This document shows positions 7,970-63,970 of a DNA stretch of 64,000 nt, piece by piece. This DNA is from Hydrogenophaga sp. (GTDB lineage: Bacteria > Pseudomonadota > Gammaproteobacteria > Burkholderiales > Burkholderiaceae_C). Position numbers and translations under genes: made by a program. Below the pieces are notes generated by a model. It was not told the origin of the DNA. It made no database searches and saw nothing but the letters and a program-made list of their open reading frames with translations. Position 1 is the first letter of the stretch; each line of letters opens with the position of its first letter. The stretch covers positions 1 to 64,000 of the forward strand of contig NZ_JAHBZK010000021.1 in the NCBI RefSeq assembly GCF_019635465.1, read 5' to 3'.

Positions 7970-7995
7970 TGAGTTGTGCTTAATCAAATTGAGTT
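7968..7995. promoter_or_regulatory. Direct repeat ATTGAGTT, 20-bp spacing, in argP-exporter region
   Basis: Two identical ATTGAGTT octamers start at 7968 and 7988, two helical turns apart, at the start of the ArgP-type gene and facing the exporter. The surrounding sequence is strikingly AT-rich (TTAATCAAATTGAGTTCGAATCAA). Spacing on one DNA face and position suggest regulator or RNA polymerase contacts; this is inference. Confidence 0.4.
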
Positions 7996-8046
7996 CGAAT
8001 CAACACGATTAAACATCAATCCATTCTCAGGCACCATGCGCAGCCG

Positions 8047-48448: not shown

Positions 48449-49341
48449 AGATCCTGCTGCTGGGCGCCATGGGGCAGGTGGGTTGGGAGCTGCAGCGCAG
48501 CCTGGCGCCGCTGGGTGAGGTGGTGGCGCTCGACCGCGACACCGCCGAGACGGCCGATTTCTCGCGCCCGGACACCTTGCCCGCGTTGGTCGCGCGGCAC
48601 GCGCCGGACGTGATCGTCAACGCGGCCGCCCACACCGCCGTCGACAAGGCCGAGAGCGAGCCCGAGCTCGCCCACACCCTCAACGCCACTGCGCCCGGCA
48701 TGCTGGCACAGGCGGCCGCCGGGCGCGGCGCGCTGCTGGTGCATTACTCGACCGACTACGTGTTCGATGGCAGCGGTGAGCAAGCGCGCAGCGAAGACGC
48801 ACCCACCGGCCCGCTGAGCGTGTACGGCCGCACCAAGCTCGCTGGCGAGCAGGCCATCCGGGCCAGCGGCGGGCGCCACCTCATCCTGCGCACCAGCTGG
48901 GTCTACGGCACGCGCGGCCAGAACTTCCCCAAGACCATGCTGCGCCTGGCGCAAGAGCGCGAGGTGCTGCGCATCGTCGACGACCAGGTGGGCGCCCCGA
49001 CCGGCGCCGACCTGCTGGCCGACGTAACCGCGCACACGGTGCGCGCCACACTGGGCGATGCCCGCCTGGGCGGCACCTACCACGTGGCCCCGCAGGGCGA
49101 GGTGAGCTGGCACGGCTTCGCACGGTATTGCATCGATACGGCCCGCGAGCTGCGCCCGGACTTGCGTTGGCAGCTGCAGCGCCTGGACGCCATCCCCAGC
49201 ACCGACTACCCGACGCCGGCGCGCCGGCCGCTCAACTCGCGCCTGAACACAGCCAGATTGCAAGCCGCTTTCGGCCTGGCGCTGCCGCGCTGGGAGCCCG
49301 GCGTGCGGCGTATGCTCGCGGAGTTCCTCACCCCATCATGA
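48445..49341 (+). CDS. rfbD: dTDP-4-dehydrorhamnose reductase
   Basis: 298 residues, extended SDR. It makes the final reduction to dTDP-L-rhamnose with NAD(P)H. The nucleotide motif is [15 protein letters not shown], with [23 protein letters not shown] and the catalytic YGRTK ([14 protein letters not shown]). ATG 48445 overlaps the rfbB stop (ATGA), and its stop overlaps rfbA in the same way. Confidence 0.95.
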
Positions 49342-50246
49342 GCACCACGCAACGCAAAGGCATCGTCCTGGCCGGCGGATCGGGCACACGCCTGCACCCG
49401 GCCACGCTGGCCATCAGCAAACAGTTGCTGCCGGTCTACGACAAGCCCATGGTCTACTACCCGCTCAGCACCCTGATGCTGGCTGGCATCCGCGACGTGC
49501 TGATCATCAGCACCCCGCAAGACACCCCGCGCTTTCAGCAACTGCTGGGTGACGGCAGCCAGTGGGGCATGAACCTGCAATACGCGGTGCAGCCCAGCCC
49601 CGACGGCCTGGCGCAGGCCTTCATCATCGGCGCCGACTTCGTGGGCAACGGGCCCAGCGCGCTGGTGCTGGGCGACAACATCTACTACGGGCACGACTTC
49701 GCCAGCCTGCTGGGCCAGGCCGACCGCAAAAGCGACGGCGCCACGGTGTTCGCCTACCACGTGACCGACCCGGAGCGCTACGGCGTGGTCGCCTTCGACG
49801 CCACCGGCAAGGCGCTCAGCATCGAAGAGAAGCCGACACTGCCCAAGAGCAACTACGCGGTCACCGGTCTGTACTTCTACGACGCCCAGGTGGTCGACAT
49901 CGCGAAGTCGATCAAGCCCAGCGCCCGCGGTGAGCTCGAGATCACCGCCGTCAACCAGGCCTACCTCGACCGCGGTCAGCTCGACGTGCAGATCATGCAG
50001 CGCGGCTACGCCTGGCTCGACACCGGCACCCACGACAGCCTGCTTGACGCCAGCCAGTTCATCGCCACGCTGGAGCACCGGCAAGGCTTGAAGATCGCCT
50101 GCCCGGAAGAGATCGCCTGGCGCAGCGCCTGGATCGACAGCGCGCAGCTTGAGCGATTGGCCGAGCCGATGAAGAAGAATGGGTATGGGCAGTATTTGAT
50201 GCGGTTGCTCAAGGATCGGTTGATTGACTATCGCGAACATGAATAA
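49338..50246 (+). CDS. rfbA: Glucose-1-phosphate thymidylyltransferase
   Basis: 302 residues. It makes dTDP-glucose from dTTP and glucose-1-phosphate. The nucleotide-binding [20 protein letters not shown] is followed by [15 protein letters not shown], the metal-binding GDNIYYG, and the C-terminal [15 protein letters not shown]. Bases near its 3' end (from about 50160) become visibly less GC-rich, the start of the shift into the downstream genes. It overlaps rfbC by eight bases. Confidence 0.95.
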
Positions 50247-50808
50247 CCAACTGAAAGTCACAACCACCGCCATCGACGGAGTTCTCCTGCTGGAGCCTCG
50301 AGTGTTTGGCGACGAACGCGGCTTCTTTCTCGAGAGCTACAACCAGCGCACATTTGAAGAGGCCACAGGCCAAGTCGTCCAGTTCGTTCAAGACAACCAT
50401 AGCCGCAGCGCCCAGGGTGTGCTGCGCGGGCTTCACTACCAGGACGAGCCATACGCCCAGGGCAAGCTGGTGCGTGTCACGCGAGGCGCCGTGTTTGACG
50501 TGGTGGTCGACATTCGTCCCCGTTCGCCAAGCTTCGGCCAGTGGATTGGCGTGGAACTCTCCGAATCCAACCAGTTGCAGGCCTGGATCCCACCCGGACT
50601 GGCGCATGGTTTCTGCGTCACCAGCGAAAGCGCCGATTTCCAGTACAAGACCACCGAGTACTACAACGCGGCGCACGAGCGCTGCATCGCCTGGAACGAC
50701 CCCGATCTCGCCATCGGCTGGCCCGCCGGCATCGAGCCCGTCTTGTCCGCGAAAGACCGCGCCGGACGGTCTTTTCATGCAGCTACCGGGCGCCAAGTAC
50801 CCCAATGA
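50239..50808 (+). CDS. rfbC: dTDP-4-dehydrorhamnose 3,5-epimerase
   Basis: 189 residues, cupin fold. It epimerises C3 and C5 of the 4-keto sugar. Catalytic His and Tyr are in [20 protein letters not shown] and YKTTEYYNA. The family start is [26 protein letters not shown] 50239 lies inside the end of rfbA. With RfbA, RfbB and RfbD it completes dTDP-L-rhamnose synthesis. It overlaps fcl (ATGA). Confidence 0.95.
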
Positions 50809-51800
50809 AATCTTCGATGCCGCCTTTGATCTATGTGGCCGGCCACCGCGGCATGGTGGGCTCCGCCATCGTGCGAGCTCTGCTGGCCAACGGCCACCCG
50901 CAGGAGCGGATCGTCACGCGTACCCACGCCGAGCTCGACCTCACCAACCAGCAGGCGGTGCGCTCATTCTTTGCCGACACCCCGGTGGACGAGGTCTACT
51001 TGGCGGCGGCCCGTGTGGGTGGCATTCACGCCAACAATACGGAGCCGGCGCAGTTCATCTACGAGAACTTGATGATCGAGGCCAACGTGATTCACGAGGC
51101 CTACCGCGGGGGCGTTAAGCGGCTTCTGTTCCTGGGTTCAAGTTGCATCTACCCGCGCATGGCGCCCCAGCCCATGCGGGAAGACGCCTTGCTGACCGGC
51201 CCGCTCGAGGCCACCAATGAACCCTACGCAATCGCCAAAATTGCCGGCATCAAGCTCTGCGAGAGCTACAACCGCCAGTACGCAGCAGAGGGGGTCGACT
51301 TCCGAAGCGTCATGCCGACCAACCTGTACGGACCCGGTGACAACTACCACCCGGACAACTCCCACGTGATCCCGGGCCTGATCCAGCGCTTTCACCGGGC
51401 AAAGGAGGAACAATTGCCGGAAGTGAAGATCTGGGGCACCGGCCTACCCCGGCGGGAATTCCTGTATGTGGACGACATGGCAGCTGCGTCGGTGCACGTG
51501 ATGAACCTGCCAAAGTCCACGTACGACAGCCTGACCTCCCCCATGCAGAACCACATCAACGTGGGCTATGGCAGCGACGTGTCGATCGGTGACCTGGGCC
51601 ACCTGGTTGCCCGGGTCACCGGCTACAACGGCCGCATCGAGTTCGACACGACCAAGCCCGACGGCACGCCGCGCAAGCTGATGGACAGCCAGCGCCTGCG
51701 TGACATGGGATGGCGCCCGGCCGTCGACTTGGAGCAGGGCCTGGTGAAGGCCTACCAGGACTTCCTGCACCACAACGTACGCGGAAAGTCGATCCAATGA
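50805..51800 (+). CDS. fcl: GDP-L-fucose synthase
   Basis: 331 residues, extended SDR. It epimerises and reduces GDP-4-keto-6-deoxymannose to GDP-L-fucose. Motifs: [46 protein letters not shown] and the catalytic YAIAK ([16 protein letters not shown]). It is placed before gmd, the reverse of the common order. ATG 50805 overlaps the rfbC stop. Confidence 0.94.
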
Positions 51801-52924
51801 CCCATACAGCCAAGGTCGCCCTCATCACAGGCATCACCGGGCAGGATGGCTCGTACCTTGCCGAGTTTCTGCTTGAAAAGGGATATGTCGTCCACGGCAT
51901 CAAACGCCGGGCCAGTCTGTTCAATACCGACAGGGTGGATCACATCTACCAGGATCCCCACGTCGACAATCAGCGCTTCGTATTGCACTACGGCGATCTG
52001 TCCGACACCAGCAATCTCGTGCGCATCATCCAGCAAGTGCAGCCCGACGAGATTTACAACCTCGGCGCGCAGAGCCATGTGGCCGTGAGCTTCGAGAGCC
52101 CGGAGTACACCGCCGACGTGGACGCGGTGGGCACGTTGCGTATTCTTGAGGCCATCCGCATTCTTGGCCTTGAGAAGAAGACGCGCTTCTATCAGGCCAG
52201 CACCAGCGAGCTCTACGGCTTGGTCCAGGAGATTCCTCAGAAGGAGACCACGCCGTTCTACCCGCGCTCACCCTACGCAGTAGCCAAGCTGTACGCCTAC
52301 TGGATCACGGTGAACTACCGCGAGGCCTATGGCATGTACGCATGCAACGGCATCCTGTTCAACCACGAGAGCCCGCGCCGAGGCGAGACCTTCGTCACCC
52401 GCAAGATCACCCGCGGTCTTGCCAATATTGCGCTGGGGCTGGAGAAATGCCTCTATATGGGCAACATGGACGCGCTGCGCGACTGGGGTCATGCCAAGGA
52501 CTACGTCCGCATGCAGTGGCTGATGCTGCAACAGGAGCAACCTGAAGACTTCGTCATTGCCACCGGTCAGCAGTACAGCGTGCGGCAGTTCATTGAATGG
52601 TCTGCGTCCGAACTGGGCATTCGGTTGCGTTTCGAGGGACATGGCGTGGATGAGCGGGGGATCGTGACCTCGGTCGACGGTGATCGCGCGCCGGCAGTCA
52701 AGCCGGGCGACGTGCTGGTGAGTGTCGATGCGCGCTATTTCAGGCCGACCGAAGTCGAGACCTTGCTGGGAGACCCGACCAAAGCCAGGGAACGTCTGGG
52801 CTGGGTGCCCGAGATCAGTGCGCAGGCCATGTGCCGCGAGATGGTGGAGCACGATCTCGCGCAAGCGCGAAAGAAGGCGCTGCTCCAGCGCCATGGGTTT
52901 GCAGTCACCTTGAACCGGGAATGA
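51797..52924 (+). CDS. gmd: GDP-mannose 4,6-dehydratase
   Basis: 375 residues. It dehydrates GDP-mannose to GDP-4-keto-6-deoxymannose, the Fcl substrate. The NAD motif is [18 protein letters not shown], and Gmd hallmarks include [52 protein letters not shown] and [17 protein letters not shown]. Genes for GDP-mannose supply (manB, manC) are not in the window. It overlaps both fcl and the following gene by four bases. Confidence 0.95.
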
Positions 52925-53307
52925 GCATGGCCCACTTCAGCCTGATCGAGCTGCCGACGTTCAGCGACCCGAGAGGGTCGCTCACGGTGATGGAGAACTC
53001 ACTGCCGTTTGCGCCGGTGCGTACCTACTGGATCAGTGGTGCGGACGGGCAGGTTCGGGGCGGACACCGTCACCACCAAACCCGCCAGGCGCTCATCGCT
53101 GTCGCCGGCACGGTCGTCATCTATATGAACGACGGAATCACCGAAGAGCACATCGCGCTGGATCACCCGTCGCGCTGCCTGCTGGTGGAGCCCAAGGACT
53201 GGCACACCATGACATTTGGCCCGGGCTCGGTGCTGTTGGTGATGTCGTCGCATCCCTACAACCGCAGTGACTATATCGACGACCCCTACGACCGGAGAGT
53301 GTCGTGA
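52921..53307 (+). CDS. dTDP-4-keto-6-deoxyglucose 3,4-ketoisomerase (FdtA/QdtA family)
   Basis: 128 residues, cupin (WxcM-like C-terminal) fold. It moves the keto group from C4 to C3 of dTDP-4-keto-6-deoxyglucose. Family residues: [43 protein letters not shown] with the His cluster, and [17 protein letters not shown]. FdtA (galacto product) and QdtA (gluco product) cannot be told apart by reading. The next gene is a matching aminotransferase. It overlaps gmd (ATGA) and the aminotransferase (GTGA). Confidence 0.88.
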
Positions 53308-54392
53308 TCGAGTACGAAAGTCTGGCCCGATCCAACGCTGCCTTCATGAGCGAGCTGGAGGCCGCCGCATCGCGCGTCCTGCGCTCGGGCTGGTATGTGC
53401 TGGGTAACGAAGTGAATGCGTTCGAAGAGGAGTTCGCTGCCTGGGTGGGAGCACGTCACTGCATCGGCGTGGCCAACGGACTGGACGCGCTCATCCTGTC
53501 CATCGAGGCGCTGGACCTCCCTGCTCGCAGCGACATATTGGTCGCCTCCAACACTTACATCGCCACCATCATCGCCATCGTTCGCGCAGGCCATCGGCCA
53601 GTGCTGGTCGAGCCCGAGCTCGAGACCTTCAACATGGATCCAAGCCGCCTGGCAGCGGCCATCACACCCCACACCCGGGCCATCTGCGTCACGCACCTGT
53701 TCGGCAAGGCATGCCGCATGGATGCCATTGGTGCATTTGCCCGAGAGCATGGACTGAGCCTGATCGAGGATTGCGCCCAGTCCCACGGTGCCCGCCTGGG
53801 CGGTCAGACCACAGGCACATTTGGTGACGCCGGCTGCTTCAGCTTTTATCCCACCAAGAACCTGGGTGCCATCGGCGAAGGCGGCGCCATTGTTACTAAC
53901 GACGACTCGCTTGCCGAGCGGCTTCGCATGACGCGAAACTACGGTTCCGAGCGCAAATACGTCTTCAAGTATGTGGGGGTGAACTCACGCCTGCACGAGA
54001 TGCAGGCCGCACTGTTGCGCGTGAAGCTGCGCCATCTCGATGCCATGACCTCGCACAAGCGCGCGCTGGCGCAGATCTACTTCGATAGACTGCCCGACTG
54101 GGTGGACAAGCCCGTGCAGCGCGCCGACGAACACGACGTGTTTCACATTTTTGGCATCCGATGCCGGAAACGGGACGCCCTGCGACAGCACCTACTCGAG
54201 CATGGCGTCAAAACCGAGATCCACTACCCCATCCCACCGCACCGTCAGGAGGCCATGCGCGGCATCCTGAGCGGCGACTATGCGGTGGCGGACGAACTGC
54301 ATGGCACGGAGCTGAGCTTGCCAATCTCCAACGGCCACAATCGCCGGGATATCGAGTCGGTTTGCTCAATCATTGGGCGCATGTCGCGCTGA
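53304..54392 (+). CDS. DegT/DnrJ/EryC1 aminotransferase (FdtB/QdtB-like)
   Basis: 362 residues, PLP sugar aminotransferase. The PLP Lys185 is in FYPTKNLGAIGEGGAI. Other blocks are WYVLGNEVNAFEEEFAAW, VANGLDALILSIEAL, SNTYIATIIAI and LIEDCAQSHGARLGG. With the 3,4-ketoisomerase before it, it most likely makes dTDP-3-amino-3,6-dideoxyhexose (Fuc3N or Qui3N). No acetyltransferase for that amine follows directly. GTG 53304 overlaps the previous stop. Confidence 0.9.
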   Translation: MIEYESLARSNAAFMSELEAAASRVLRSGWYVLGNEVNAFEEEFAAWVGARHCIGVANGLDALILSIEALDLPARSDILVASNTYIATIIAIVRAGHRPVLVEPELETFNMDPSRLAAAITPHTRAICVTHLFGKACRMDAIGAFAREHGLSLIEDCAQSHGARLGGQTTGTFGDAGCFSFYPTKNLGAIGEGGAIVTNDDSLAERLRMTRNYGSERKYVFKYVGVNSRLHEMQAALLRVKLRHLDAMTSHKRALAQIYFDRLPDWVDKPVQRADEHDVFHIFGIRCRKRDALRQHLLEHGVKTEIHYPIPPHRQEAMRGILSGDYAVADELHGTELSLPISNGHNRRDIESVCSIIGRMSR

Positions 54393-54438: not shown

Positions 54439-55641
54439 ATGAGCACCGAAGCGTACTACGGCCTCCCTCCCCAAGTGGAGTTCTGCTCCAACTGCGTCAT
54501 TTCCAATCAAAGGCCCAGCTCCACTGTGGAATTCGGCAGTCGCAAGGGCGAGAGGAAGTCAACGATTTCTTTCAAGGATGGGCTGTGCTCGGCCTGCGCC
54601 TATGCACGCGAGAAGGAAAGCAATATTGATTGGAAGCTGCGCGAGGATCGCTTGGTGGAACTGCTATCCCGCTTTCGCCGCAACGACGGTCGCTATGACG
54701 TGATCGTGCCAGGCAGTGGCGGTAAGGACAGCGCCTACACGGCCCATATCCTCAAGGCAAGGTACGGAATGAACCCTCTGACCGTCACCTGGGCGCCACA
54801 CCTCTACACCGACATAGGTTGGAAGAATTTCACCAACTGGATGCACATTGGCGGACTGGACAACATCCTTTACACGCCCAACGGAAAGCTGCATCGGCTG
54901 CTGACGCGGCTGGCCTTTCTAAACCTGCTGCATCCGTTCCAACCGTTCATCATCGGCCAGCGCATCATCGGCCCAGCCATGGCGGCTCGCTTCGGCGTAC
55001 CGCTGGTGATGTACGGAGAGAACCAGGCCGAGTACGGTAACAACGTCGACGACAACCAGCGCCCTACCATGGATCCAGCGTTCTTCTCGACAGGCGACCC
55101 ACTGGACATGAAGTTTGGCGGTGTCACCATGCGAGACATCATGGCCGAGCATGGGTACGCCATGGGCGATTTCGCGCCCTACATCCCGCCGCAGCGCGAA
55201 ACGCTGGAGCAGGCCGGCATCGAGGTGCACTACCTCGGCTACTACCTCAAATGGGATCCGCAGGAGTGCTACTACTACGCGGTCGAGCACACCGGCTTCC
55301 AGGCTAACCCGGAGCGCACCGAAGGCACCTACTCCAAGTACAGCAGCATCGACGACCGTATCGACCCGTTCCACTACTACACGACGCTGGCGAAGTTCGG
55401 CCTGGGACGCGCCTCCTACGACGCCGCGCAGGAAATCCGCAACGGCAAGATCACCCGCGAAGAGGGCGTCAATCTGGTGCGCAAGTTCGACCAGGAGTTC
55501 CCGGCAAAGTACTTCCCCGACTTCCTCGAGTACATCGGCATCAGCGAGGCCGAGTTCCACGAGACGGTCGACCGCTACCGCTCGCCTCACCTCTGGCACA
55601 AGGTGGACGGCCAGTGGCAACTCAAACACGTGGTGAGCTGA
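54439..55641 (+). CDS. N-acetyl-sugar amidotransferase (PseA/WbpG family)
   Basis: 400 residues. It is an ATP-pyrophosphatase-type enzyme that activates the acetamido group of a sugar and uses ammonia to form an acetamidino group. The PP-loop SGGKDS (93-98, in PGSGGKDSAYTA) and two Cys pairs (C16/C19 and C50/C53), probably binding zinc, are visible. WbpG works with HisH2/HisF2, which supply ammonia; homologues of both are at 60779-62145 in this operon. Its gene is 46 bases after the aminotransferase gene and two bases before neuB. Confidence 0.88.
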   Translation: MSTEAYYGLPPQVEFCSNCVISNQRPSSTVEFGSRKGERKSTISFKDGLCSACAYAREKESNIDWKLREDRLVELLSRFRRNDGRYDVIVPGSGGKDSAYTAHILKARYGMNPLTVTWAPHLYTDIGWKNFTNWMHIGGLDNILYTPNGKLHRLLTRLAFLNLLHPFQPFIIGQRIIGPAMAARFGVPLVMYGENQAEYGNNVDDNQRPTMDPAFFSTGDPLDMKFGGVTMRDIMAEHGYAMGDFAPYIPPQRETLEQAGIEVHYLGYYLKWDPQECYYYAVEHTGFQANPERTEGTYSKYSSIDDRIDPFHYYTTLAKFGLGRASYDAAQEIRNGKITREEGVNLVRKFDQEFPAKYFPDFLEYIGISEAEFHETVDRYRSPHLWHKVDGQWQLKHVVS

Positions 55642-55643
55642 CC

Positions 55644-56702
55644 ATGACCCAGACCCCCGAATTCCAGATCCAGGGCCGCAGGATCGGCGCTGCCCATCCC
55701 CCGCTGGTGATCGCCGAGATCGGCATCAACCACGAGGGCAACTACGACAAGGCGATCCAGATGGTGGACGACGCGCGCCAGGCAGGCTGCGAATGCGTGA
55801 AGTTCCAGTACCACGTGATCGAGGATGAAATGATCCCCAACGACGTGATTCCGGGCAACGCCAAGGAGTCCATCTGGGACATCATGAAACGGTGCGCACT
55901 GACGCCGGCCGAAGAGCGCCGGCTCAAGCAGTACGTCGAGGACAGAGGCCTCATTTATCTCAGCACGCCGTTCTCGCGCTCCGCCGCCAACGAGTTGGAG
56001 ATGCTGAACGTCAACTGGTACAAGATCGGTTCGGGCGAGTGCAACAACTACCCGCTGATCCGCCACGTGGCGGCCTTCGGCAAGCCGGTGATCCTGTCGA
56101 CCGGCATGAACGACATTGACAGTATCCGGCCTGCGGTGGATATCTTCCGTGCCGCCGGGGTGCCGTTCGCCCTGCTGCACTGCACCTCGATGTACCCCAC
56201 GCCATACGACAAAGTGCGGCTGGGTGCGATCGCCGAGCTGCAGGAGGCATTCCCCGACGCGGTGCTCGGCCTGTCCGATCACTCACTGGGCCCCTACACC
56301 TGCTTAGGCGCCGTACCGCTGGGCGCGTCCATCCTCGAGAAGCACTTCACATCCAGCTTCGACTGGCCCGGGCCGGACATCCCGATCTCGGTTGATCCGG
56401 TCCAACTGGCCGAGATGGTCAAAGGCAGCCGCGCCATCCACCAGGCGTTGGGTGGGTCCAAACGTATCCTGGCCGAAGAACAGCCAACCATTGACTTCGC
56501 GTACGCCTGCGTGGTAACCACCCGACCGATCGCCGCAGGCGAGGCCTTCAGTGCCGACAACATCTGGGTCAAGCGCCCGGGCACCGGCGAGATCAAGGCG
56601 CGCGACTACGAACGTCTGATCGGCAAGGCGGCTACGCGCAGCCTGCCACTCAACACGCAGGTCGCCTGGTCGGACGTGGACGGTATCGAGTCCAGCACAT
56701 GA
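55644..56702 (+). CDS. neuB: Nonulosonic acid synthase (NeuB/LegI/PseI family)
   Basis: 352 residues. It condenses phosphoenolpyruvate with an N-acyl-hexosamine to a nonulosonic acid. A TIM barrel (LVIAEIGINHEGNYDKA, CVKFQYH, YLSTPFSR, IGSGECNNYPLI, LSTGMND, HCTSMYPTP, GLSDHS, LEKHFT) is followed by a C-terminal SAF (antifreeze-like) domain (ACVVTTRPIAAGEAFSADNIWVKRPGTG). Which acid is made (sialic, legionaminic or pseudaminic) depends on partners; NeuC rather than PseG points away from pseudaminic. ATG 55644; overlaps the pyruvyl-transferase gene. Confidence 0.9.
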   Translation: MTQTPEFQIQGRRIGAAHPPLVIAEIGINHEGNYDKAIQMVDDARQAGCECVKFQYHVIEDEMIPNDVIPGNAKESIWDIMKRCALTPAEERRLKQYVEDRGLIYLSTPFSRSAANELEMLNVNWYKIGSGECNNYPLIRHVAAFGKPVILSTGMNDIDSIRPAVDIFRAAGVPFALLHCTSMYPTPYDKVRLGAIAELQEAFPDAVLGLSDHSLGPYTCLGAVPLGASILEKHFTSSFDWPGPDIPISVDPVQLAEMVKGSRAIHQALGGSKRILAEEQPTIDFAYACVVTTRPIAAGEAFSADNIWVKRPGTGEIKARDYERLIGKAATRSLPLNTQVAWSDVDGIESST

Positions 56703-57850
56703 CTGCGGTTGATCGCCCGATCAGGGTGCTCCATCTTGCGAGCTTCGTCGGCAACATCGGCGACCTCGCCAACCATGCGGGTGCGCGGCGCCTATTGGCC
56801 AAGCACGTGCCTTTTCGCCTGGAATTCACGGAACTGGAGATCCGTGAGTTTTACTGGAAGCAGCGCACCTTCGACGCTGCTTTTGTTGACTATGCCAACA
56901 GCTTCGACCTGCTGATCATCGGAGGCGGGAACTACTTCGAGCTGTGGGTCGACCATTCGATGACCGGTACATCGATCGACATTTCGCCCGATCTGATGCA
57001 GCGGCTCACCGTACCGACGCTGTTTCACTCATTGGGCGTGGACACCGGTCAAGGCTATACCGAGCGCTCGGCCGGTCGCTTCCGCGCGTTCATAGAGACA
57101 GTGCTGGATCGCGACAACATGTTTGTGAGCGTGCGCAACGACGGCTCCACACGTGCCCTGAACGAGGTACTTGGCACGACCATGGCGCAGCACATTCCCA
57201 CGATGCCGGATGGGGGCTTCTTTGCAGCGCCGCCCCGTTCCGCGACAAGCGGGCGCAGTCCCTGCATCGGTATCAATATCGCGGGCGACATGCTGGACAA
57301 GCGATTTGACGGTGGCCTGAATGTGGACGGATTTCTGGAGGAACTGGCCACTGCTTGCTGCGGGCTGCTGGACCAGCAGCCCGACATGCGCATCGTACTA
57401 ATGCCCCACATCTGGCGCGACGTCTCCCTGATTGCACAACTCCTTCCCCGGTTTGCCGATAGCTACCTGCGAAGGCGCGTGGCCGTCGGCCGTCTGGAGC
57501 CCACACAGAACGGTTTGGACGAATTTCTCGCCAACTACCAGGCCTTCGACTTGGTACTGGGCATGCGGTTTCACGCCAACGTCTGCCCGATCGGGATGGG
57601 CGTTCCTACCCGGGGCTTGCTCAACTATCCGCAGGTGCAACGCCTGTACGAGGAACTCGATCTGCCCGAGCGCCTGGTGGATGTGCGCGACCACGGTTTC
57701 GGCGTTCGGCTGCAGGATGCAGCAAGCTCGGATCTGGCCGCGCTACCTGAAAGGCGGGCCGAAAGCCTCCAAAGTGTCGGGCTCATCGAGCAACAGGCGC
57801 AGCGCACACTTTCGTCCATCAGCGCCTGGTTGCAACGCGCGCTGAACTGA
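56699..57850 (+). CDS. Polysaccharide pyruvyl transferase family protein
   Basis: 383 residues with the GT-B-like fold of CsaB-type proteins. Signature positions are HLASFVGNIGDLANHAG, DLLIIGGGNYFELW and the C-terminal LVLGMRFHANVCPIGMGVPT. The family adds ketal-linked pyruvate from PEP to sugars. It sits between neuB and a large glycosyltransferase-like gene. Pyruvylation of the repeat unit is a reasonable guess. Its start overlaps neuB by four bases. Some family members have other substrates. Confidence 0.8.
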   Translation: MTAVDRPIRVLHLASFVGNIGDLANHAGARRLLAKHVPFRLEFTELEIREFYWKQRTFDAAFVDYANSFDLLIIGGGNYFELWVDHSMTGTSIDISPDLMQRLTVPTLFHSLGVDTGQGYTERSAGRFRAFIETVLDRDNMFVSVRNDGSTRALNEVLGTTMAQHIPTMPDGGFFAAPPRSATSGRSPCIGINIAGDMLDKRFDGGLNVDGFLEELATACCGLLDQQPDMRIVLMPHIWRDVSLIAQLLPRFADSYLRRRVAVGRLEPTQNGLDEFLANYQAFDLVLGMRFHANVCPIGMGVPTRGLLNYPQVQRLYEELDLPERLVDVRDHGFGVRLQDAASSDLAALPERRAESLQSVGLIEQQAQRTLSSISAWLQRALN

Positions 57851-57852
57851 CC

Positions 57853-59625
57853 GTGAATCTTCTTTTCTTTAACCCGCACGCCGCCCTGTGGCCACACACC
57901 GCGCCCGAGGCCTTCATCGCCCGCTCTCTCGCGGCGCAGGGCCACAGCGTCAATTACCTGACCTGCGGCAAGGCGCAGACTTACTGCGCACCCATGACGG
58001 CGCGCCGGCACGCCCCGGGTTGCAGCCCGGAAGACGTCGCACGCATCTGCTCTGAATGCCGGGCGAACAAGGATGCTATTGGTTTCGTGTACCGATTTCC
58101 CATCGACGAACTCGAGAACCATCTCGTCCCAAACGACAAAGCGCGGCTCGATGCGATCGCAGCCGATGCTGTGACACACGGCTCCCTGGACACGCGATAC
58201 CTGGGGGTCGACGTTGGTCGAATTGCGCTCTACGAGTTCACGCTGGCGCACAAGAAGATGAGCAGCGAGCTCACCCCTGTCCAGTGGCAACAGTACCAAG
58301 TGTACCTGGCCAACGCGCTGCGCACGCTGGAGGCTTTCTCGCGCTACCTGGACCGACATTCGGTCGATGTCGTCTTTGCCTTCAGCCCCCAGTACTCGAA
58401 CATCAACTCGTGCATGCAGTACGCCATTGCGCGTGGCGTGAAGGTCATGTTCATGGAAAGCGGGACCAATCTGTCAGACAGGTTGAGTTCCATGCGCGTG
58501 TGGGACTGGAAGGTTCATCGGCTGGTCAATCCGGCACTGACTTACTGGAAGCAATCGAGTCTGAATCCGGTGTCGGCCAGCGGTGTGGCGGCAGTCATCG
58601 GGCATTTCGAGCAGCTCCTGTCTGGCCAGCATTTCGCGGTGTTCTCTGCCCCCTACAGCGAAAGCCGCGACTTGCGGCAACGCTGGCATATCCGTCATGA
58701 CCAGAAGGTGCTGCTCATGACCTTGTCCAGCTACGACGAGGCCTACGCAGCGCTGCTGATTTCCGCATTCCCGCAAAGCAAGGTTTTCAGTGACGTGTTC
58801 GAAACCCAGGCCGACTGGGTACGTGCCACCATCGAATGGGCGCGGGACAGGCCGGACGTGTTTCTGGTGATTCGCGTGCACCCGCGAGATTTCCCCAACA
58901 AGCGTGAGAACTTCCGTTCCGAACAGTCCTTCATGCTTGAGGACCTGCTGGCCAGCGTACCGCCCAACGTTCATGTGAACTGGCCATCGGAGGGCGTACC
59001 GCTGTACGAGCTGCTGGAGGATACGGACGCCCTGCTCACGGGGTGGTCCGTCACAGCGCTGGAAGCCCTGATCCTGGGTATTCCGGTCGTCACCTACGAT
59101 GCCCGATTGCCGTCGTATCCAGCAGATGTGCACTACACGGGGCGATCGGCCAGCGAGTATTTCGGCAACATCGACCGTGCATTGTCCGATGGATGGTCGC
59201 TGAAGAATGCCATCAACGGGTTCCGCTGGATGGCCTACAACTTCGTGACCTGTACCGTGAGAGCGTCGGACCGCTTCGGGCGCTTCGAGCTCGGCCAGAC
59301 GGCCGGACCGATTCATCGCTTGGCATCGCGGGTCATGAATCGGCTTCCCAGGATCTCCCATGCCATGGACCTGGTCCATTGGCAGTCTGCACGAGACGCC
59401 GGACGCATCGTTTCGTGCATGATTGAACAAGGATTCGACGCTTTGCCGCCAGCGCGTGCAGTGCTCGGCGAGATGCCGGTATCGAGCGGTGACGATCGAA
59501 ATCTGGTCCTCGAAGGCTTGGCCCGGCTCCATGCGCTCCTGTACGGGGACAGCAAGCTCCCGACCGACAAACCTGGACTTTCACTGCGTATCCGCAATCT
59601 GCTTGCGCAGGAGGGCGTCGCATGA
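57853..59625 (+). CDS. Large glycosyltransferase-like protein, unknown specificity
   Basis: 590 residues. The start MNLLFFNPHAALWPHTAPEAFIARSLAAQGHSVNYL and the later WPSEGVPLYELLEDTDALLTGWSVTALEALILGIPVVTY suggest a GT-B fold with a nucleotide-sugar binding C-terminal half, like capsule polysaccharide biosynthesis proteins. Cysteines in PGCSPEDVARICSECRAN may form a metal site, which is unusual for this fold. I do not recognise the family and cannot name donor or acceptor. It begins with GTG 57853, two bases after the previous stop, and overlaps neuC. Confidence 0.7.
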   Translation: MNLLFFNPHAALWPHTAPEAFIARSLAAQGHSVNYLTCGKAQTYCAPMTARRHAPGCSPEDVARICSECRANKDAIGFVYRFPIDELENHLVPNDKARLDAIAADAVTHGSLDTRYLGVDVGRIALYEFTLAHKKMSSELTPVQWQQYQVYLANALRTLEAFSRYLDRHSVDVVFAFSPQYSNINSCMQYAIARGVKVMFMESGTNLSDRLSSMRVWDWKVHRLVNPALTYWKQSSLNPVSASGVAAVIGHFEQLLSGQHFAVFSAPYSESRDLRQRWHIRHDQKVLLMTLSSYDEAYAALLISAFPQSKVFSDVFETQADWVRATIEWARDRPDVFLVIRVHPRDFPNKRENFRSEQSFMLEDLLASVPPNVHVNWPSEGVPLYELLEDTDALLTGWSVTALEALILGIPVVTYDARLPSYPADVHYTGRSASEYFGNIDRALSDGWSLKNAINGFRWMAYNFVTCTVRASDRFGRFELGQTAGPIHRLASRVMNRLPRISHAMDLVHWQSARDAGRIVSCMIEQGFDALPPARAVLGEMPVSSGDDRNLVLEGLARLHALLYGDSKLPTDKPGLSLRIRNLLAQEGVA

Positions 59626-60773
59626 CCCGCAAGGTGCTATTCATTACTGGTACACGTGCCGACTTCGGCAAGCTCAAGCCACTCATTCAGGCCGTCGATG
59701 CGGCTGAAGGCTTCGAGACCGCGGTGTTCATCACGGGGATGCATACCTTGTCCCGCTACGGTTACACGCTTGACGAGGTATACCGCGTGCTCCCGGAGCA
59801 CCGGTTGCGCGACGGCACGCGCAGCGTGTACGTCTATCACAACCAAGTGGTCGGCGAGCCCATGGAACGTGTGCTCGCATCCACCATCGAGGGCCTGTCG
59901 AGGTACCTGACCGAGTTTCGCCCCGACTTGATCGTCGTCCATGGCGATCGCGTAGAAGCGCTGGCTGGCGCGATCGTCGGTGCGCTGCGCAACATCCTGG
60001 TGGCGCATGTGGAAGGCGGCGAGGTTTCGGGCACGGTGGACGAACTGATCCGCCATGCCGTAACCAAGATGTCCCATATCCACTTCGTCGCCAACGACGA
60101 AGCATCGCGTCGCCTGCTTCAACTCGGTGAGCGTCCAGAGACCATCCATGTGATCGGGTCCCCTGACATAGATCTGATGATGTCGCCGTCGCTGCCCGAC
60201 ATCGCCGAGGTCAAACGCTACTACGACATTCCGTTTCAGGATCACGGCGTCGTGCTGTTCCACCCCGTCACGACCGACCTCGAGGACACGCAGCGCTCGG
60301 CTCAAGGGATCGCCGACGCGGTTCTTGCCAGCGGACGTGACCATGTGGTCATCTATCCGAACAACGACGAGGGTTGCGAGTTGATCTTCAGCGCCTGGGA
60401 GCGCTTCAGGAATCAGCGACGCATCAAGCTGCTGCCTTCGATGCGCGTCGAATACTTTCTGGTGATGCTACGCAACGCGCGTTACCTCCTGGGGAACTCC
60501 AGCGCGGGCATTCGAGAGTGCCCGGTCTTTGGCGTACCGGCCATCAACGTTTCGACGCGCCAGAACGGTCGGTCCAACGCCGCCTGCATCATCAACGTGC
60601 CCGGTGAGACATCCGCGCTGACTGCGGCCATGGACTCGGCCTGGGACAATCTGGAGCGGCATGCGCCTGACCTCTCCTTCGGCAAGGGAAACAGCGCCGG
60701 CATGTTCGTGTCCGCCCTGAGCGACGCCCACTTCTGGAGCGCGTCAACCCAGAAGCTGTTCAACGACATCTGA
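59622..60773 (+). CDS. neuC: UDP-N-acetylglucosamine 2-epimerase, hydrolysing (NeuC/LegG family)
   Basis: 383 residues. It epimerises C2 and hydrolyses the nucleotide to give the free ManNAc-type sugar used by NeuB. Family features: LFITGTRADFGKLKPLI at the start, VHGDRVEALAGAIVG, AHVEGGEVSGTVDELIRHAVTKMSHIHF, and the C-terminal NSSAGIRECPVFGVPAINVSTRQNGR. In a legionaminic-type route the homologue LegG takes a 2,4-diacetamido-trideoxy substrate. ATG 59622 overlaps the preceding stop. Confidence 0.9.
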   Translation: MTRKVLFITGTRADFGKLKPLIQAVDAAEGFETAVFITGMHTLSRYGYTLDEVYRVLPEHRLRDGTRSVYVYHNQVVGEPMERVLASTIEGLSRYLTEFRPDLIVVHGDRVEALAGAIVGALRNILVAHVEGGEVSGTVDELIRHAVTKMSHIHFVANDEASRRLLQLGERPETIHVIGSPDIDLMMSPSLPDIAEVKRYYDIPFQDHGVVLFHPVTTDLEDTQRSAQGIADAVLASGRDHVVIYPNNDEGCELIFSAWERFRNQRRIKLLPSMRVEYFLVMLRNARYLLGNSSAGIRECPVFGVPAINVSTRQNGRSNAACIINVPGETSALTAAMDSAWDNLERHAPDLSFGKGNSAGMFVSALSDAHFWSASTQKLFNDI

Positions 60774-60778
60774 ACGCC

Positions 60779-61534
60779 ATGCAGCGGATCATTGCCCGGC
60801 TGGACATCAAGAATGGCATGGTCATCAAGGGCATCCACCTTGAAGGCCAGCGCCGTATCGGCGACCCAGTGGAGATTGCGCGCAAGTACTATGCGCAGGC
60901 CATCGACGAGATCATCATGATGGATTCGGTTGCAGCGCTCTACGGCCGCAGCAACTTGTTTCACACCATCGCCGAAGCCTGCCGCACTGTGTTCGTGCCC
61001 ATCACCATGGGTGGTGGGATTCGCTCGGTCACCGACGTTGAGGTGGCACTTGCCGCCGGAGCCGACAAGGTCGCCATCAACAGTGCGCTCGTGCAGGAGC
61101 CGAGTCTGGTCGACCGTATCGCGTCGATCTACGGCAGCCAATGCCTAGTCGCCTCGATAGAGGCCAAACGCCGAGACCAAGGCTGGGAGGTGTACGTGAG
61201 CAACGGGCGCGAGCCGACAGGGCGTGACGTGATCGACTGGGTGCGCGAACTGGAGCGACGCGGCGCCGGTGAAGTGCTCGTGACCTCAGTTGATCAGGAG
61301 GGCACGCAGCGCGGTTTCGATATCGCCCTGTGCCACGCCGTGGTGGAAGCCGTCCGCATCCCCGTCATTGCCTCTGGAGGTGCGGGCAAGCTTGAACACC
61401 TGAGCCAGCTGAATGCCGGCGCTCACGTGCAAGCCATCGCCATCGCCTCGATGCTGCACTACAACAAGGCCTTGGTGGACCAAATCAAGTCCGTGCTACC
61501 TGACACCGTTCGGCACACGAAGGGGTTTGCATGA
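60779..61534 (+). CDS. hisF: HisF-like cyclase subunit paralogue (ammonia-channelling for sugar amidination)
   Basis: 251 residues, (beta-alpha)8 barrel of HisF type: IIARLDIKNGMVIKGIHLEGQRRIGDP, VPITMGGGIRSVTDVE, VTSVDQEGTQRGFD and IASGGAGKLEHL. Asp9 (HisF Asp11) is kept, but the position of HisF Asp130 is Glu128 (SIEAKR). No other histidine gene is near. Placement with HisH and a WbpG-type amidotransferase marks it as the specialised copy that passes ammonia to amidination, not histidine synthesis. It overlaps the hisH-like gene by four bases. Confidence 0.88.
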   Translation: MQRIIARLDIKNGMVIKGIHLEGQRRIGDPVEIARKYYAQAIDEIIMMDSVAALYGRSNLFHTIAEACRTVFVPITMGGGIRSVTDVEVALAAGADKVAINSALVQEPSLVDRIASIYGSQCLVASIEAKRRDQGWEVYVSNGREPTGRDVIDWVRELERRGAGEVLVTSVDQEGTQRGFDIALCHAVVEAVRIPVIASGGAGKLEHLSQLNAGAHVQAIAIASMLHYNKALVDQIKSVLPDTVRHTKGFA

Positions 61535-62145
61535 TCGCGGTGATCGACTACGGCATCGGAAACGTGCGCAGTGTGATCAACGCGCTTGAGCACGTGGGTG
61601 CCAGCGCGACGTTGACCCGCGATCCGGTCAAGCTGCGTGCCGCTGACGCGCTGGTGTTACCAGGAGTGGGCGCATTCGGTGAGGGCATGCGCCGGCTGGC
61701 AACCCATGGCCTGACCGAGCCACTGCGCGAATTGGTGCTGGCTGGCCGCCCCCTTTTGGGCATATGCCTAGGTTTCCAGATGCTGATGCGCTCAAGCAAC
61801 GAAATGGGAAAGCACGCCGGGCTTGGACTGATCGATGCCGACGTGGTTCGCCTGCCTGTGGACGCGCGTCTTCCCCATATTGGGTGGGCTCCAGTGCATG
61901 CAACCGCCTCTCCGAGTGCGCCCCGCTTGCTGAAAGGCCTCGAGGGAGCGCGTTTCTACTTCGTTCACTCCTACGGCGTGATCGGTTCCACCTTCACGTT
62001 TGCGGCCGGCATTGCAGAGTGCGACGGCCTGCCGTTCGCCGCGCTGGCGGAATCGGGTCGTGTGTTCGGCACCCAGTTCCATCCGGAGAAAAGCGGTGAA
62101 GCCGGCCTGACCATGTTGCGAAACTTCATGGATGTCTGCACATGA
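61531..62145 (+). CDS. hisH: HisH-like glutamine amidotransferase subunit (sugar amidination)
   Basis: 204 residues, class I glutaminase. The triad is Cys79 (GICLGFQML), His184 and Glu186 (GTQFHPEKSG). The start VIDYGIGNVRSVINALEHVG and LVLPGVGAFGEGM are typical of HisH. It generates ammonia from glutamine for the HisF-like partner and, by analogy with HisH2 in Pseudomonas O-antigen clusters, for the N-acetyl-sugar amidotransferase. It overlaps both neighbours by four bases. Confidence 0.9.
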   Translation: MIAVIDYGIGNVRSVINALEHVGASATLTRDPVKLRAADALVLPGVGAFGEGMRRLATHGLTEPLRELVLAGRPLLGICLGFQMLMRSSNEMGKHAGLGLIDADVVRLPVDARLPHIGWAPVHATASPSAPRLLKGLEGARFYFVHSYGVIGSTFTFAAGIAECDGLPFAALAESGRVFGTQFHPEKSGEAGLTMLRNFMDVCT

Positions 62146-62849
62146 CAGCGGGCTATCTGGCGATCGTGACCGCGCGCGCTGGCAGCAAGCGGCTGCCGGA
62201 CAAGAACATCCGACCGCTTTGTGGGCATCCCCTGTTCGTGTGGTCGGTGAAGGCGGCGCTTGCCGCAGCTTCGGTCAGCCGCATCATCGTGTCCACCGAT
62301 TCGCCTTACTACCGCGAGATCGCCCTGAAGGCGGGTGCGGACTGCCCCTGGCTGCGACCGCCCGAGCTGGCGACCGATACCACCTCGAGCGCCGACGTGG
62401 TCGCTGACATGCTGGACCGCCTGGGTGATGAACTTGCGCGGTACCGTGGCCTGGTGCTGCTGCAACCCACTTCGCCGTTGCGCGTAGCAGCGGACATTGA
62501 GGCGGCAATCGGACTGTACGAAGCCCGGCAGGCGCCTGCCGTCGTCACTGTGAGCGAAGCGGAGTGCCCGCCTGCCTGGATGGGCCAGCTGCCCGCGGAT
62601 GGCTGCATGGATCATTTTGTGCAGCCGCAGTTTCGCGGCATTCGCAGCCAGGATCTTGGGCTGTGGTATCGCCTCAACGGTGCTGTGTACGTGATTGGCA
62701 TCGATACCTTCCAGCGCGAACACGGGTTCATGCCAACAGGAACGCTGGGCTACGTCATGCCACGAGAGCGCTCAGTTGACGTGGACACAGCCTTCGATTT
62801 CCAGGTGGCCAATGCGTTGATGAGCGCGCGGGCGCACCGAGACACCTGA
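62142..62849 (+). CDS. neuA: Acylneuraminate/nonulosonate cytidylyltransferase (NeuA/LegF-like)
   Basis: 235 residues. It activates the NeuB product with CTP to the CMP-sugar. The nucleotide-binding signature is AIVTARAGSKRLPDKNIRPLCGHPLFVW, followed by IIVSTDSPYYREIA, VLLQPTSPLR and LGYVMPRERSVDVDTAFDF. It is a short form without an added esterase domain. With NeuC and NeuB the set for making CMP-activated nonulosonic acid is complete. Its stop overlaps the next ATG by one base (TGATG). Confidence 0.92.
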   Translation: MTAGYLAIVTARAGSKRLPDKNIRPLCGHPLFVWSVKAALAAASVSRIIVSTDSPYYREIALKAGADCPWLRPPELATDTTSSADVVADMLDRLGDELARYRGLVLLQPTSPLRVAADIEAAIGLYEARQAPAVVTVSEAECPPAWMGQLPADGCMDHFVQPQFRGIRSQDLGLWYRLNGAVYVIGIDTFQREHGFMPTGTLGYVMPRERSVDVDTAFDFQVANALMSARAHRDT

Positions 62850-63970
62850 TGAGTGGCAGTCACATCGATCGGCTCTCGGGGGTTCGTGGCCTGGCCGCAC
62901 TCGTGGTGCTCCTGGCGCACCTCGCGCAGATTCACCTGCTGCGATTCGAGGGACTGGGTACGCCTCTGCATCGGGTGTCGTCCGTAGCGAGCGAATACGC
63001 CGTAATTGTCTTCTTCGTCCTGTCCGGATACCTCATCACCCATACGCTGGAAGCGAACATCCGCCGCAATGGATCCGTGGACATGGGTGAATACCTGACC
63101 GCTCGCATAGCGCGCCTGTACCCTCCGTTTCTACTGGCCGTCGGGGTGTCGATCGCCGTCTATGGCAGCCTCGACACCCTGGCGCTACCGGGTCGAGGCG
63201 GAGCCATGTCCCTGCCCGGCGACCTGTACGCCGCGCGAGAGATTGTTCATCTGCACGGAAGCGAGGTACTGAACGCGCTATTCATGATACGAGGCATGCT
63301 TGAGATCAACGGGCCTTTGTGGAGCCTGTATATCGAGGCGAAACTGTACTTGGTGTTCGCCTGCGCATTGGCGCTGATGACCGGTCACCGGCGGCGATTG
63401 GCACTCGTGGCCACGCTCGCAGTGGTCCTGTGGAGTGGATTCAGGCACAACCCGGGGTTTGCGCTCTACGCTGCAATCTGGCTCTGCGGCTCCCTTGGCT
63501 ACTACCTCTGGAATGAGGAAGGACGCGCGTTGCATCGTCGCAGGGCGCAGCTTTGCGGCCTCGCGGTGGTCGGACTGGCGATGGTGGCCGCCCGCGACAC
63601 GTTGGTCGCGAATGCCCCGCTGTATGAGCCCGCTGTCCAGTTGGCAGCGTCGGTCGGAATCGCGTGGATGCTGTTCCATGTCAAGCTCCCCTGGCCACGG
63701 ATGCAAGGACTGGCCGGTTGTTCATACAGTCTTTACGTGACGCATTTCCCCCTCCTGCTGCTAGTGCAGGCAATGGTGGTATCTGTGGACTCGCGTACAC
63801 CGTTTGGCGCTCTGTCGGCCGTCCTCGTGAGTTTTGCCCTGGCGGGAACTGTCGCCTGGCTGGGCGGTGTGCTCGAGCGGCGCAAGAGCGCCATTCAGGC
63901 CGGGCTGCTCAAGGCCCTGACCACGATGTCGCGCGGCCTCGGACTGGACAGCCAGGGGAGGACTCCGTGA
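62849..63970 (+). CDS. Membrane O-acyltransferase (acyltransferase-3 family)
   Basis: 373 residues with about ten hydrophobic segments. Family start: DRLSGVRGLAALVVLLAHLAQIHL with the catalytic His region, then VIVFFVLSGYLITHTL and YLTARIARLYPPFLLAVGV (Arg-rich loop). Members add acetyl groups to O-antigen or capsule sugars at the inner membrane. It is a candidate for O-acetylation of the nonulosonate polymer. The stop overlaps a possible next GTG at 63967. Confidence 0.87.
   Translation: MSGSHIDRLSGVRGLAALVVLLAHLAQIHLLRFEGLGTPLHRVSSVASEYAVIVFFVLSGYLITHTLEANIRRNGSVDMGEYLTARIARLYPPFLLAVGVSIAVYGSLDTLALPGRGGAMSLPGDLYAAREIVHLHGSEVLNALFMIRGMLEINGPLWSLYIEAKLYLVFACALALMTGHRRRLALVATLAVVLWSGFRHNPGFALYAAIWLCGSLGYYLWNEEGRALHRRRAQLCGLAVVGLAMVAARDTLVANAPLYEPAVQLAASVGIAWMLFHVKLPWPRMQGLAGCSYSLYVTHFPLLLLVQAMVVSVDSRTPFGALSAVLVSFALAGTVAWLGGVLERRKSAIQAGLLKALTTMSRGLGLDSQGRTP

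Follow-up and report, generated by a model that had tools for sequence, protein, structure and literature searches.

A 64,000-nucleotide stretch of Hydrogenophaga sp. (contig NZ_JAHBZK010000021.1, positions 1 to 64,000; hereafter the window) contains a unit of eight genes (54439-62849) in which the genes for a nonulosonic acid (NulO) are combined with those of an N-acetyl sugar amidotransferase (NASAT) and its HisF- and HisH-like partners. With slightly better than even confidence it is proposed that this unit makes and places 5-N-acetimidoyl-neuraminic acid (Neu5Am), a sialic-type NulO with an amidine at N5. The link between the amidotransferase trio and the NulO genes is well supported, and the NulO is the most likely carrier of the amidine. 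N5-acetimidoyl groups on pseudaminic, legionaminic and 8-epilegionaminic acid (Pse, Leg, 8eLeg) are listed in a 2023 review (PMC9912281), and by the description given there fusaminic acid also carries an acetimidoyl group, so that 7-hydroxy amidine NulOs exist. For neuraminic acid no report of an N5-acetimidoyl group was found in searches of the open-licence PubMed Central literature. NulOs are described in Accumulibacter (PMC8053191). The genes of the unit, the gene that follows it and the sugar genes upstream are (coordinates, strand, assignment):

54439..55641, plus: N-acetyl sugar amidotransferase (NASAT/WbuX family), LpNASAT branch, with PP-loop SGGKDS (93-98) and Cys4 motif
55644..56702, plus: NeuB-type nonulosonate synthase, Neisseria meningitidis type (Pfam NeuB, alignment)
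56699..57850, plus: polysaccharide pyruvyl transferase family protein (PF04230), GT-B fold predicted, inside the conserved unit
57853..59625, plus: protein of 590 amino acids (aa), GTG start, probable GT-B glycosyltransferase for the NulO (weak profile matches)
59622..60773, plus: NeuC-type hydrolysing UDP-sugar 2-epimerase (TIGR03568)
60779..61534, plus: HisF-like (WbuZ) partner of the amidotransferase (TIGR03572, under cut-off)
61531..62145, plus: HisH-like (WbuY) glutaminase (TIGR01855) with GICLGF and FHPEKS stretches (Cys, His, Glu)
62142..62849, plus: NeuA-type CMP-nonulosonate synthetase (CTP_transf_3)
62849..63970, plus: membrane O-acyltransferase (Acyl_transf_3), outside the conserved eight-gene unit
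52927..53307, plus: FdtA-like 3,4-ketoisomerase, a backbone gene and not part of the NulO unit
53304..54392, plus: FdtB-like sugar aminotransferase, probably C-3, a backbone gene
47387..52924, plus: rmlB, rmlD, rmlA, rmlC (named by reading), fcl and gmd, for the backbone sugars dTDP-rhamnose and GDP-fucose

Conservation of the eight-gene unit

According to the list of open reading frames (ORFs) and their translations, the nine ORFs between 54439 and 63970 are tightly packed on the plus strand; neighbours overlap by 1-4 bases or leave a gap of 2-5 bases. An earlier note on this DNA had described them as a coupled run including NeuB, NeuC, NeuA and an amidotransferase/HisF/HisH trio, with SGGKDS at residues 93-98 of the amidotransferase, and had suggested looking for the order neuB-pyruvyl transferase-590-neuC in other genomes. 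Coordinates, translations and profiles agree with this description, and the order is present in two further loci.

These loci come from a NeuB scan of species genomes which yielded 68 loci. In a metagenome-assembled genome of the Rhodocyclaceae (L064) NASAT, neuA and the six genes between them keep their order with 64-89 % identity, the whole arrangement being gmd-fcl-fdtA-fdtB-NASAT-neuB-pyruvyl transferase-590-neuC-hisF-hisH-neuA with gmd and fcl swapped in comparison to the window; a short acyltransferase ORF, an ABC gene and FkbM follow neuA. In Microcystis elabens FACHB-917 (L065), a cyanobacterium by taxonomy, order is kept as well (59-80 % identity). As the neighbouring genes differ in L065, the unit is bounded by the amidotransferase and NeuA, and the repetition of the order in other genomes excludes a chance grouping. 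The eight genes are a conserved unit which is rare near the window: the window NASAT was found in three of 67 genomes of the genus and the 590-aa protein in three of 299 genomes of the family, both counts including the own genome and the latter also one marginal match (G007, E 7.5e-4, three stops), which was disregarded. We propose that the unit is horizontally mobile.

A genome of the same family (G207) shares fcl, gmd, fdtA and fdtB (69-73 %) as well as five downstream genes (58-77 %) with the window. At the place of the unit, however, it has PseB, PseC and PseI (PseF and PseG by reading) together with a NASAT (31-32 % to that of the window), HisH, HisF and a 590-aa homologue (32 %). Since G207 keeps fdtAB but swaps the cassette and the trio, the trio and the 590-aa gene follow the NulO and not fdtAB. 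Such pseudaminic amidination (PseA) thus resembles the window in that NASAT, HisH and HisF accompany NulO synthesis genes and a homologue of the 590-aa protein, but it differs in the PseB/PseC/PseI route and in the distant NASAT.

Two further loci belong to the same genus. L157 (genome G711) contains neuA-neuB-neuC, two glycosyltransferase-like ORFs (by reading) and hisF-hisH-NASAT, with a NASAT 72 % identical to that of the window; no match to LegB, LegC or LegH was found on its contig and none to fdtA/fdtB. L158 (G764) combines LegB, LegC, a weak LegH, LegI, LegG and PtmE with NeuA, HisF, HisH and a NASAT which shows 51-53 % identity to the window and groups with L055, a LegB-LegC locus. The view of the earlier note that both gene sets belong together and that the acetamidino group is carried by the NulO is supported by the recurrence of the unit, the swap in G207, these two loci and the NASAT tree.

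The amidotransferase and its partners

The window NASAT (400 aa) reaches 350.8 bits with TIGR03573 (cut-off 203.2). Members of this family are defined in PMC10607449 by a PP-loop SGGXDS and a tetracysteine motif; the latter corresponds to C16/C19 and C50/C53 in the window protein. The HisH-like protein exceeds the cut-off of TIGR01855 (193.4 vs 105.4 bits), whereas the HisF-like protein scores best with the WbuZ model TIGR03572 (267.3 bits) and stays under its cut-off of 299.7. A second HisF on another contig lies over the cut-off (364.5 bits), hence the HisF-like protein of the trio is an extra copy.

The identity to LpNASAT of Legionella pneumophila (8WEX, PMC10607449), the only solved NASAT structure matched, is 56 %, compared with 21 % to WbuX of Escherichia coli O145. 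In a tree of 36 NASATs the window, L064, L065 and L047 stand together (support 100/100), and a branch of 24 rows (100/99) holds 8WEX and the window with O145 WbuX and L017 outside. A tree redone with L157 and L158, from which rows L072, L078, L084, L086, L104, L124 and L130 were omitted, gave the same grouping; L157 lies in the five-row clade of the window (100/100), where L047 is its sister. A disordered fragment of LpNASAT is said to be missing in other members (PMC10607449). In the alignment this extra segment between the two Cys pairs is present in the window, L064, L065, L047 and others and absent in O145 WbuX and L017. Judged by sequence, the window amidotransferase belongs to the LpNASAT branch and not with the fucosamine-amidating WbuX of O145.

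NeuB, NeuC and NeuA

The synthase of the window is a member of Pfam NeuB (239.2 vs 22.1 bits). Its best NCBIfam model is the Neu5Ac synthase TIGR03569, ahead of PseI, with 352.9 bits under a cut-off of 399.65; the NeuB of L047, which is 68-69 % identical to N. meningitidis NeuB, is also under this cut-off (374.4). The window protein shares 55.6 % identity with N. meningitidis NeuB (1XUU) and has a similar C4-C6 stretch: at positions 68-86 of the meningococcal enzyme it reads NDVIPGNAKESIWDIMKRC compared with KQVIPGNADVSIYEIMERC. The C4-C6 specificity is placed at 70-85 in section 7 of PMC7371886. NeuBs from LegB-LegC loci differ at most of positions 68-86. With N. meningitidis NeuB as query the best match had 69 % identity, and seven of 369 genomes of the class sample were found at E 1e-100. 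No amidotransferase is known to accompany NeuB in N. meningitidis.

NeuC exceeds the cut-offs of TIGR03568 (367.3 vs 235.9 bits) and Pfam Epimerase_2 (233.7 vs 30.6). Since the NeuC of the LegB locus L047 likewise passes TIGR03568 (364.8), the model leaves the substrate of NeuC unfixed. In the NeuC tree the window falls into a clade of 44 rows without a reference enzyme inside; N. meningitidis SiaA presumably belongs there as well, and a DNA-uptake-sequence pattern aimed at a Neisseria genome with SiaA matched none of the 369 genomes. The motifs EGGE.SGT and HPVTT, which seemed to separate human GNE from LegG, were dropped as a substrate test, E. coli K1 NeuC being LegG-like. NeuA scores best with PseF (150.6 bits, cut-off 205.7) and is a member of CTP_transf_3 (80.5 vs 22.6).

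Among 85 loci (L047-L131), 35 have a window-type NeuC, three of them with LegB and one with LegC; in another 30, whose NeuCs are all of other types, LegB was found in 14 cases and LegC in nine. This association is a trend and not a test, many stretches being cut short and some of the loci with other NeuC having supplied the LegB/LegC references.

This overlap of references and the cut stretches count among the points against the Neu5Am reading; there are further ones. NeuB, NeuA and the HisF-like protein are all under their NCBIfam cut-offs. The sialic NeuB of E. coli K1 has 34 % identity to the window protein and is unlike it in the specificity stretch. None of the 44 rows of the NeuC clade was linked in this analysis to an assayed enzyme. 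The NeuCs of E. coli K1, O104 and O145 (L133, L141, L143; L132 and L142 proved to be off target) act in sialic acid pathways, yet in the tree they fall with the LegG of legionaminic loci, away from the window clade. Clade and substrate are therefore not equivalent, and sialic NeuC is not one lineage. Furthermore, in L047, inside the NASAT clade of the window, a VIPGNA-type NeuB is accompanied by LegB and PtmE, and L058-L061 at the base of the LpNASAT branch lack the extra segment too. LegC lies over its cut-off in four of 37 genomes of the NeuB scan (L073, L077, L087, L101), all with window-type NeuC, and in L101 within the locus itself. Finally, genes for a WecE-type aminotransferase, a PglF-like and a PglD-like protein are present on the contig of the window, and at 88.25 % completeness of the genome LegB and LegC could be missing from the assembly.

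In L065 a PtmE-like remnant of 54 residues (7880-8041, 39 %) is located just upstream of NASAT. This remnant also speaks against a sialic-type product, as the locus may formerly have had a NulO route via a GDP-sugar.

Alternative products

A fusaminic-like, 9-deoxy and 7-hydroxy amidine survives best among the alternatives, yet it is unlikely. UDP-N-acetylquinovosamine (UDP-QuiNAc), formed by the PglF-like dehydratase and a reductase (72901-73851), would here be converted by NeuC and lead to 5-acetimidoyl-9-deoxy-neuraminate or an epimer. A sugar of this kind has been described in Fusobacterium nucleatum 25586 (PMC9912281; also a title cited in PMC12940168); it is like the proposed Neu5Am in being a 5-acetimidoyl NulO with a C7 hydroxyl, but it is 9-deoxy and of other configuration. 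The cluster holds a dehydratase, a reductase-like gene and a sugar transferase, and the PtmE-like remnant beside the L065 unit fits as well. So does L047 from the NASAT clade of the window, a locus where LegB and PtmE occur and LegC is absent. However, no PglF-like match was found in the L065 stretch (21 kb) or in the stretch of G711 contig C13 (21.5 kb). A dehydratase, a reductase and a transferase are moreover a usual way of priming a glycan with QuiNAc, and for this the genes need not be linked to the NulO.

Eight loci (L113, L114, L115, L118, L121, L122, L123 and L047) have a LegB-like gene with NeuB and LegG-type NeuC, with no LegC in the stretch and with a PtmE-like gene in six of the eight. 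All except L047 show DM(K/T)PG instead of VIPGNA in NeuB. This group may make 9-deoxy, 7-hydroxy (fusaminic-like) NulOs via a GDP-sugar route.

Almost on a par, and improbable as well, is a legionaminic-type product, Leg5Am7Ac. UDP-di-N-acetyl-bacillosamine would be formed via the PglF-like protein, some C-4 aminotransferase and a PglD/NeuD-like protein, followed by NeuC, NeuB, NeuA and the trio. PglF-like, NeuD-like and WecE-type aminotransferase genes lie on the same contig, and the one solved NASAT structure matched is that of L. pneumophila. That organism offers a precedent with a dehydratase gene outside the locus: according to section 6 of PMC3766260, NeuABC and a PtmG homologue lead to Leg5Am7Ac, so there is a known case of NeuABC paired with a PtmG-like amidotransferase. 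The two loci are alike in this combination and in the PP-loop, Cys4 motif and extra segment of NASAT, the comparison covering NASAT and gene content. They differ in that an aminotransferase and NeuD stand beside NeuC in L. pneumophila, with a 5,7-diamino product, whereas at the window no LegB or LegC was found and the pyruvyl transferase relative and the 590-aa protein are added.

The earlier note had predicted a legionaminic type because of NeuC- rather than PseG-type hydrolysis. NeuC-type hydrolysis is common to the sialic and the legionaminic routes, the latter requiring also LegB/LegC/LegH or PglF/E/D, and the legionaminic assignment is not supported. The contig was followed to its end, the ORFs being listed and part of them profile-searched, and then the genome was searched, as the note had proposed for LegB, LegC and LegH beyond 64000. 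In the whole genome (88 % complete) the best LegB match (TIGR04180) is 119.7 bits against a cut-off of 475 and the best LegC match (TIGR04181) 171.3 against 420, followed by 165, so that neither gene is present at or near its cut-off; what the search did find is a NeuD/PglD-like gene (153 bits, cut-off of the NeuD/PglB/VioB family 160.8). The genome contains two strong DegT-family genes (343 and 301 bits), one paired with FdtA and one of WecE type, and eight others of at most 35 bits, and no LegC or other dedicated UDP-sugar aminotransferase was found in it. The aminotransferase adjacent to NASAT reaches 308 (QdtB) and 227 (WbpE), but at most 170 with perosamine synthetase, ArnB and dTDP-4-amino-4,6-dideoxygalactose transaminase. 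QdtB and WbpE are C-3 enzymes, the other three C-4 enzymes. Its best NCBIfam matches are C-4 models, far under cut-off (PseC at the top with 194.7), which speaks for the legionaminic route, whereas G207, where FdtAB stand beside a separate PseC, speaks for a pairing with FdtA. By its similarities the FdtB-like protein probably acts at C-3, paired with FdtA as in G207.

LegB-LegC loci carry NeuB and NeuC of other types than the window, and L157 has the set without any legionaminic gene match. The LegC model gives 177 bits in the L064 genome, 189.8 in G711 and 221 in the L065 genome, the last match being a PseC (550 bits), so that M. elabens may make a pseudaminic acid as well. Among the class-sample genomes, 28 of 369 have a NASAT family member at E 1e-40 (own genome included); 17 class NASAT loci were fetched and nine genomes put to the LegC search. 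In eight of these nine LegC lies inside the NASAT locus (355-533 bits), and in the ninth (G600) a LegC-model match of 333.9 is on another contig; G764 of the genus has its LegC in the locus as well (527 bits).

Least likely is plain Neu5Ac with the amidine on the FdtAB-derived 3-amino sugar or on QuiNAc, after the model of E. coli O145, where the cluster of RM13514 holds neuB, a cytidylyltransferase gene, neuC and an N-acetyl sugar amidotransferase gene with hisH, and where WbuX is involved in the conversion of N-acetyl-L-fucosamine (L-FucNAc) to its amidine L-FucNAm (PMC10607449). Both clusters (neuB, neuC, wbuX and hisH in O145) bring sialic genes and NASAT together, and fdtB is directly upstream of the window NASAT; but the O145 enzyme comes from a distant branch (21 %) and serves L-FucNAm, whereas the window trio lies inside the sialic unit, travels with neuBCA in L065 with fdtAB left behind, occurs in L157 without an fdtA/fdtB match, and is replaced in G207, which keeps fdtAB, by one with a NASAT of another branch. 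For an FnlA-type dehydratase, not searched genome-wide, the PglF-like gene reached 134.1 bits against a cut-off of 730.

Proposed pathway to Neu5Am

For Neu5Am, the preferred product, the reactions and both transferase roles are deduced from the observed genes, their order, families and relatedness and from the recurrence of the unit. NeuC would convert UDP-GlcNAc to N-acetylmannosamine (ManNAc), which NeuB would condense with phosphoenolpyruvate to Neu5Ac, and NeuA would form CMP-Neu5Ac. HisH would release ammonia from glutamine, which would pass via the HisF-like barrel to the PP-loop amidotransferase. There the 5-N-acetyl oxygen would be activated by ATP and replaced by NH, yielding CMP-5-N-acetimidoyl-neuraminate; the placement of this step at the CMP-sugar stage is taken over from the statement about PtmG in PMC3766260. 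The 590-aa protein may then transfer Neu5Am onto a glycan with rhamnose, fucose and a 3-amino-3,6-dideoxyhexose, and the pyruvyl transferase relative may decorate this glycan or act as a second transferase.

The pyruvyl transferase relative matches PS_pyruv_trans (58.6 vs 25.3 bits). A GT-B fold is predicted for it (mean pLDDT 83), and the model resembles many GT-B enzymes with none prominent; no pyruvyl transferase was among the 50 structural matches listed in either of two comparisons. Homologues with 44 % identity are found near neuABC in L068, L110 (Nitratidesulfovibrio) and L127, with no NASAT matched in the stretch, so a broader function alongside sialic-type NulOs is possible for the protein.

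The 590-aa protein reached no curated profile cut-off in Pfam or NCBIfam and is, from its sequence, a probable GT-B glycosyltransferase transferring the NulO. An alignment of three full-length members shows no variation at Cys38, 45, 57, 66 and 69, which may be metal ligands. An assignment to DUF6716 was rejected (19.7 bits vs 27; absent in the L064 or L065 homologues). The predicted structure (mean pLDDT 40) was too poor to use, and a profile search against solved structures gave a single match with E 0.11. The acyltransferase belongs to Acyl_transf_3 (92.8 vs 31 bits); it has no match in L065 and corresponds to an ORF of 123 aa in L064.

Genomic setting

Among the backbone genes gmd is over its profile cut-off and fcl close to it (495.3 vs 500). 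Between 40 and 50 kb the G+C content is 0.65-0.70; beyond 50 kb it falls to 0.605-0.634. The contig runs on to 92478. Up to 77009 it encodes an ABC exporter (best match PglK, far under cut-off), four methyltransferases, at least three glycosyltransferases, the reductase-like gene, a sugar-phosphate transferase, the NeuD/PglD-like acetyltransferase (74440-75021) and the PglF-like dehydratase (75018-77009). The four methyltransferase genes lie amid glycosyltransferases at 65.7-72.1 kb (L002, contig G000:C14), which suggests a methylated glycan. A second sugar cluster is located on the minus strand at 82.5-88 kb (L003) with the WecE-type aminotransferase (83077-84192, 609.7 bits) and, by reading, a NeuD-like acetyltransferase, a methyltransferase, a dioxygenase-like and a WbqC-like protein.

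Distribution and significance

A NASAT is present in 15 of the 68 NeuB loci. Measured on open frames, it lies at most 300 bases from a window-type neuB on the same strand in eight loci (L064, L065, L074, L076, L078, L084, L124, L130), none of which has LegB (at least 45 %) or LegC (at least 40 %) in the stretch covered. At least two NASAT branches are found at sialic-type operons with NeuB and NeuC. One is the LpNASAT branch (window, L064, L065, L157, L076; near by in L073), the other a separate second branch (L074, L078, L084, L124, L130), whose NASAT gene stands between neuB and neuC in L074, L124 and L078, the contig of L078 ending soon after. The occurrence near window-type neuB in two branches suggests that amidination of sialic-type NulOs arose or spread more than once. 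Going further, and with confidence somewhat short of even, Neu5Am might be a natural sugar of several bacterial phyla, at least two NASAT branches having joined sialic-type NeuB/NeuC operons.

The second branch adjoins neuB in Bacteroidota, Ignavibacteriota, one Gammaproteobacterium and Latescibacterota, with no LegB or LegC in the stretch; a member in Thaumarchaeota (L104) is not adjacent to neuB.

The suggestion of the earlier note that the glycan may be undescribed stands, although as Neu5Am and not through the legionaminic argument. The predicted Neu5Am differs from Neu5Ac by one dalton, and one carrier, M. elabens FACHB-917, is a named cyanobacterial strain. Within the genus, L157 and L158 offer a clean contrast between two likely amidine pathways. 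If present, the amidine would give a common sialic acid a positive charge close to its carboxylate, which could alter recognition by sialidases, phages and sialic-acid-binding proteins.

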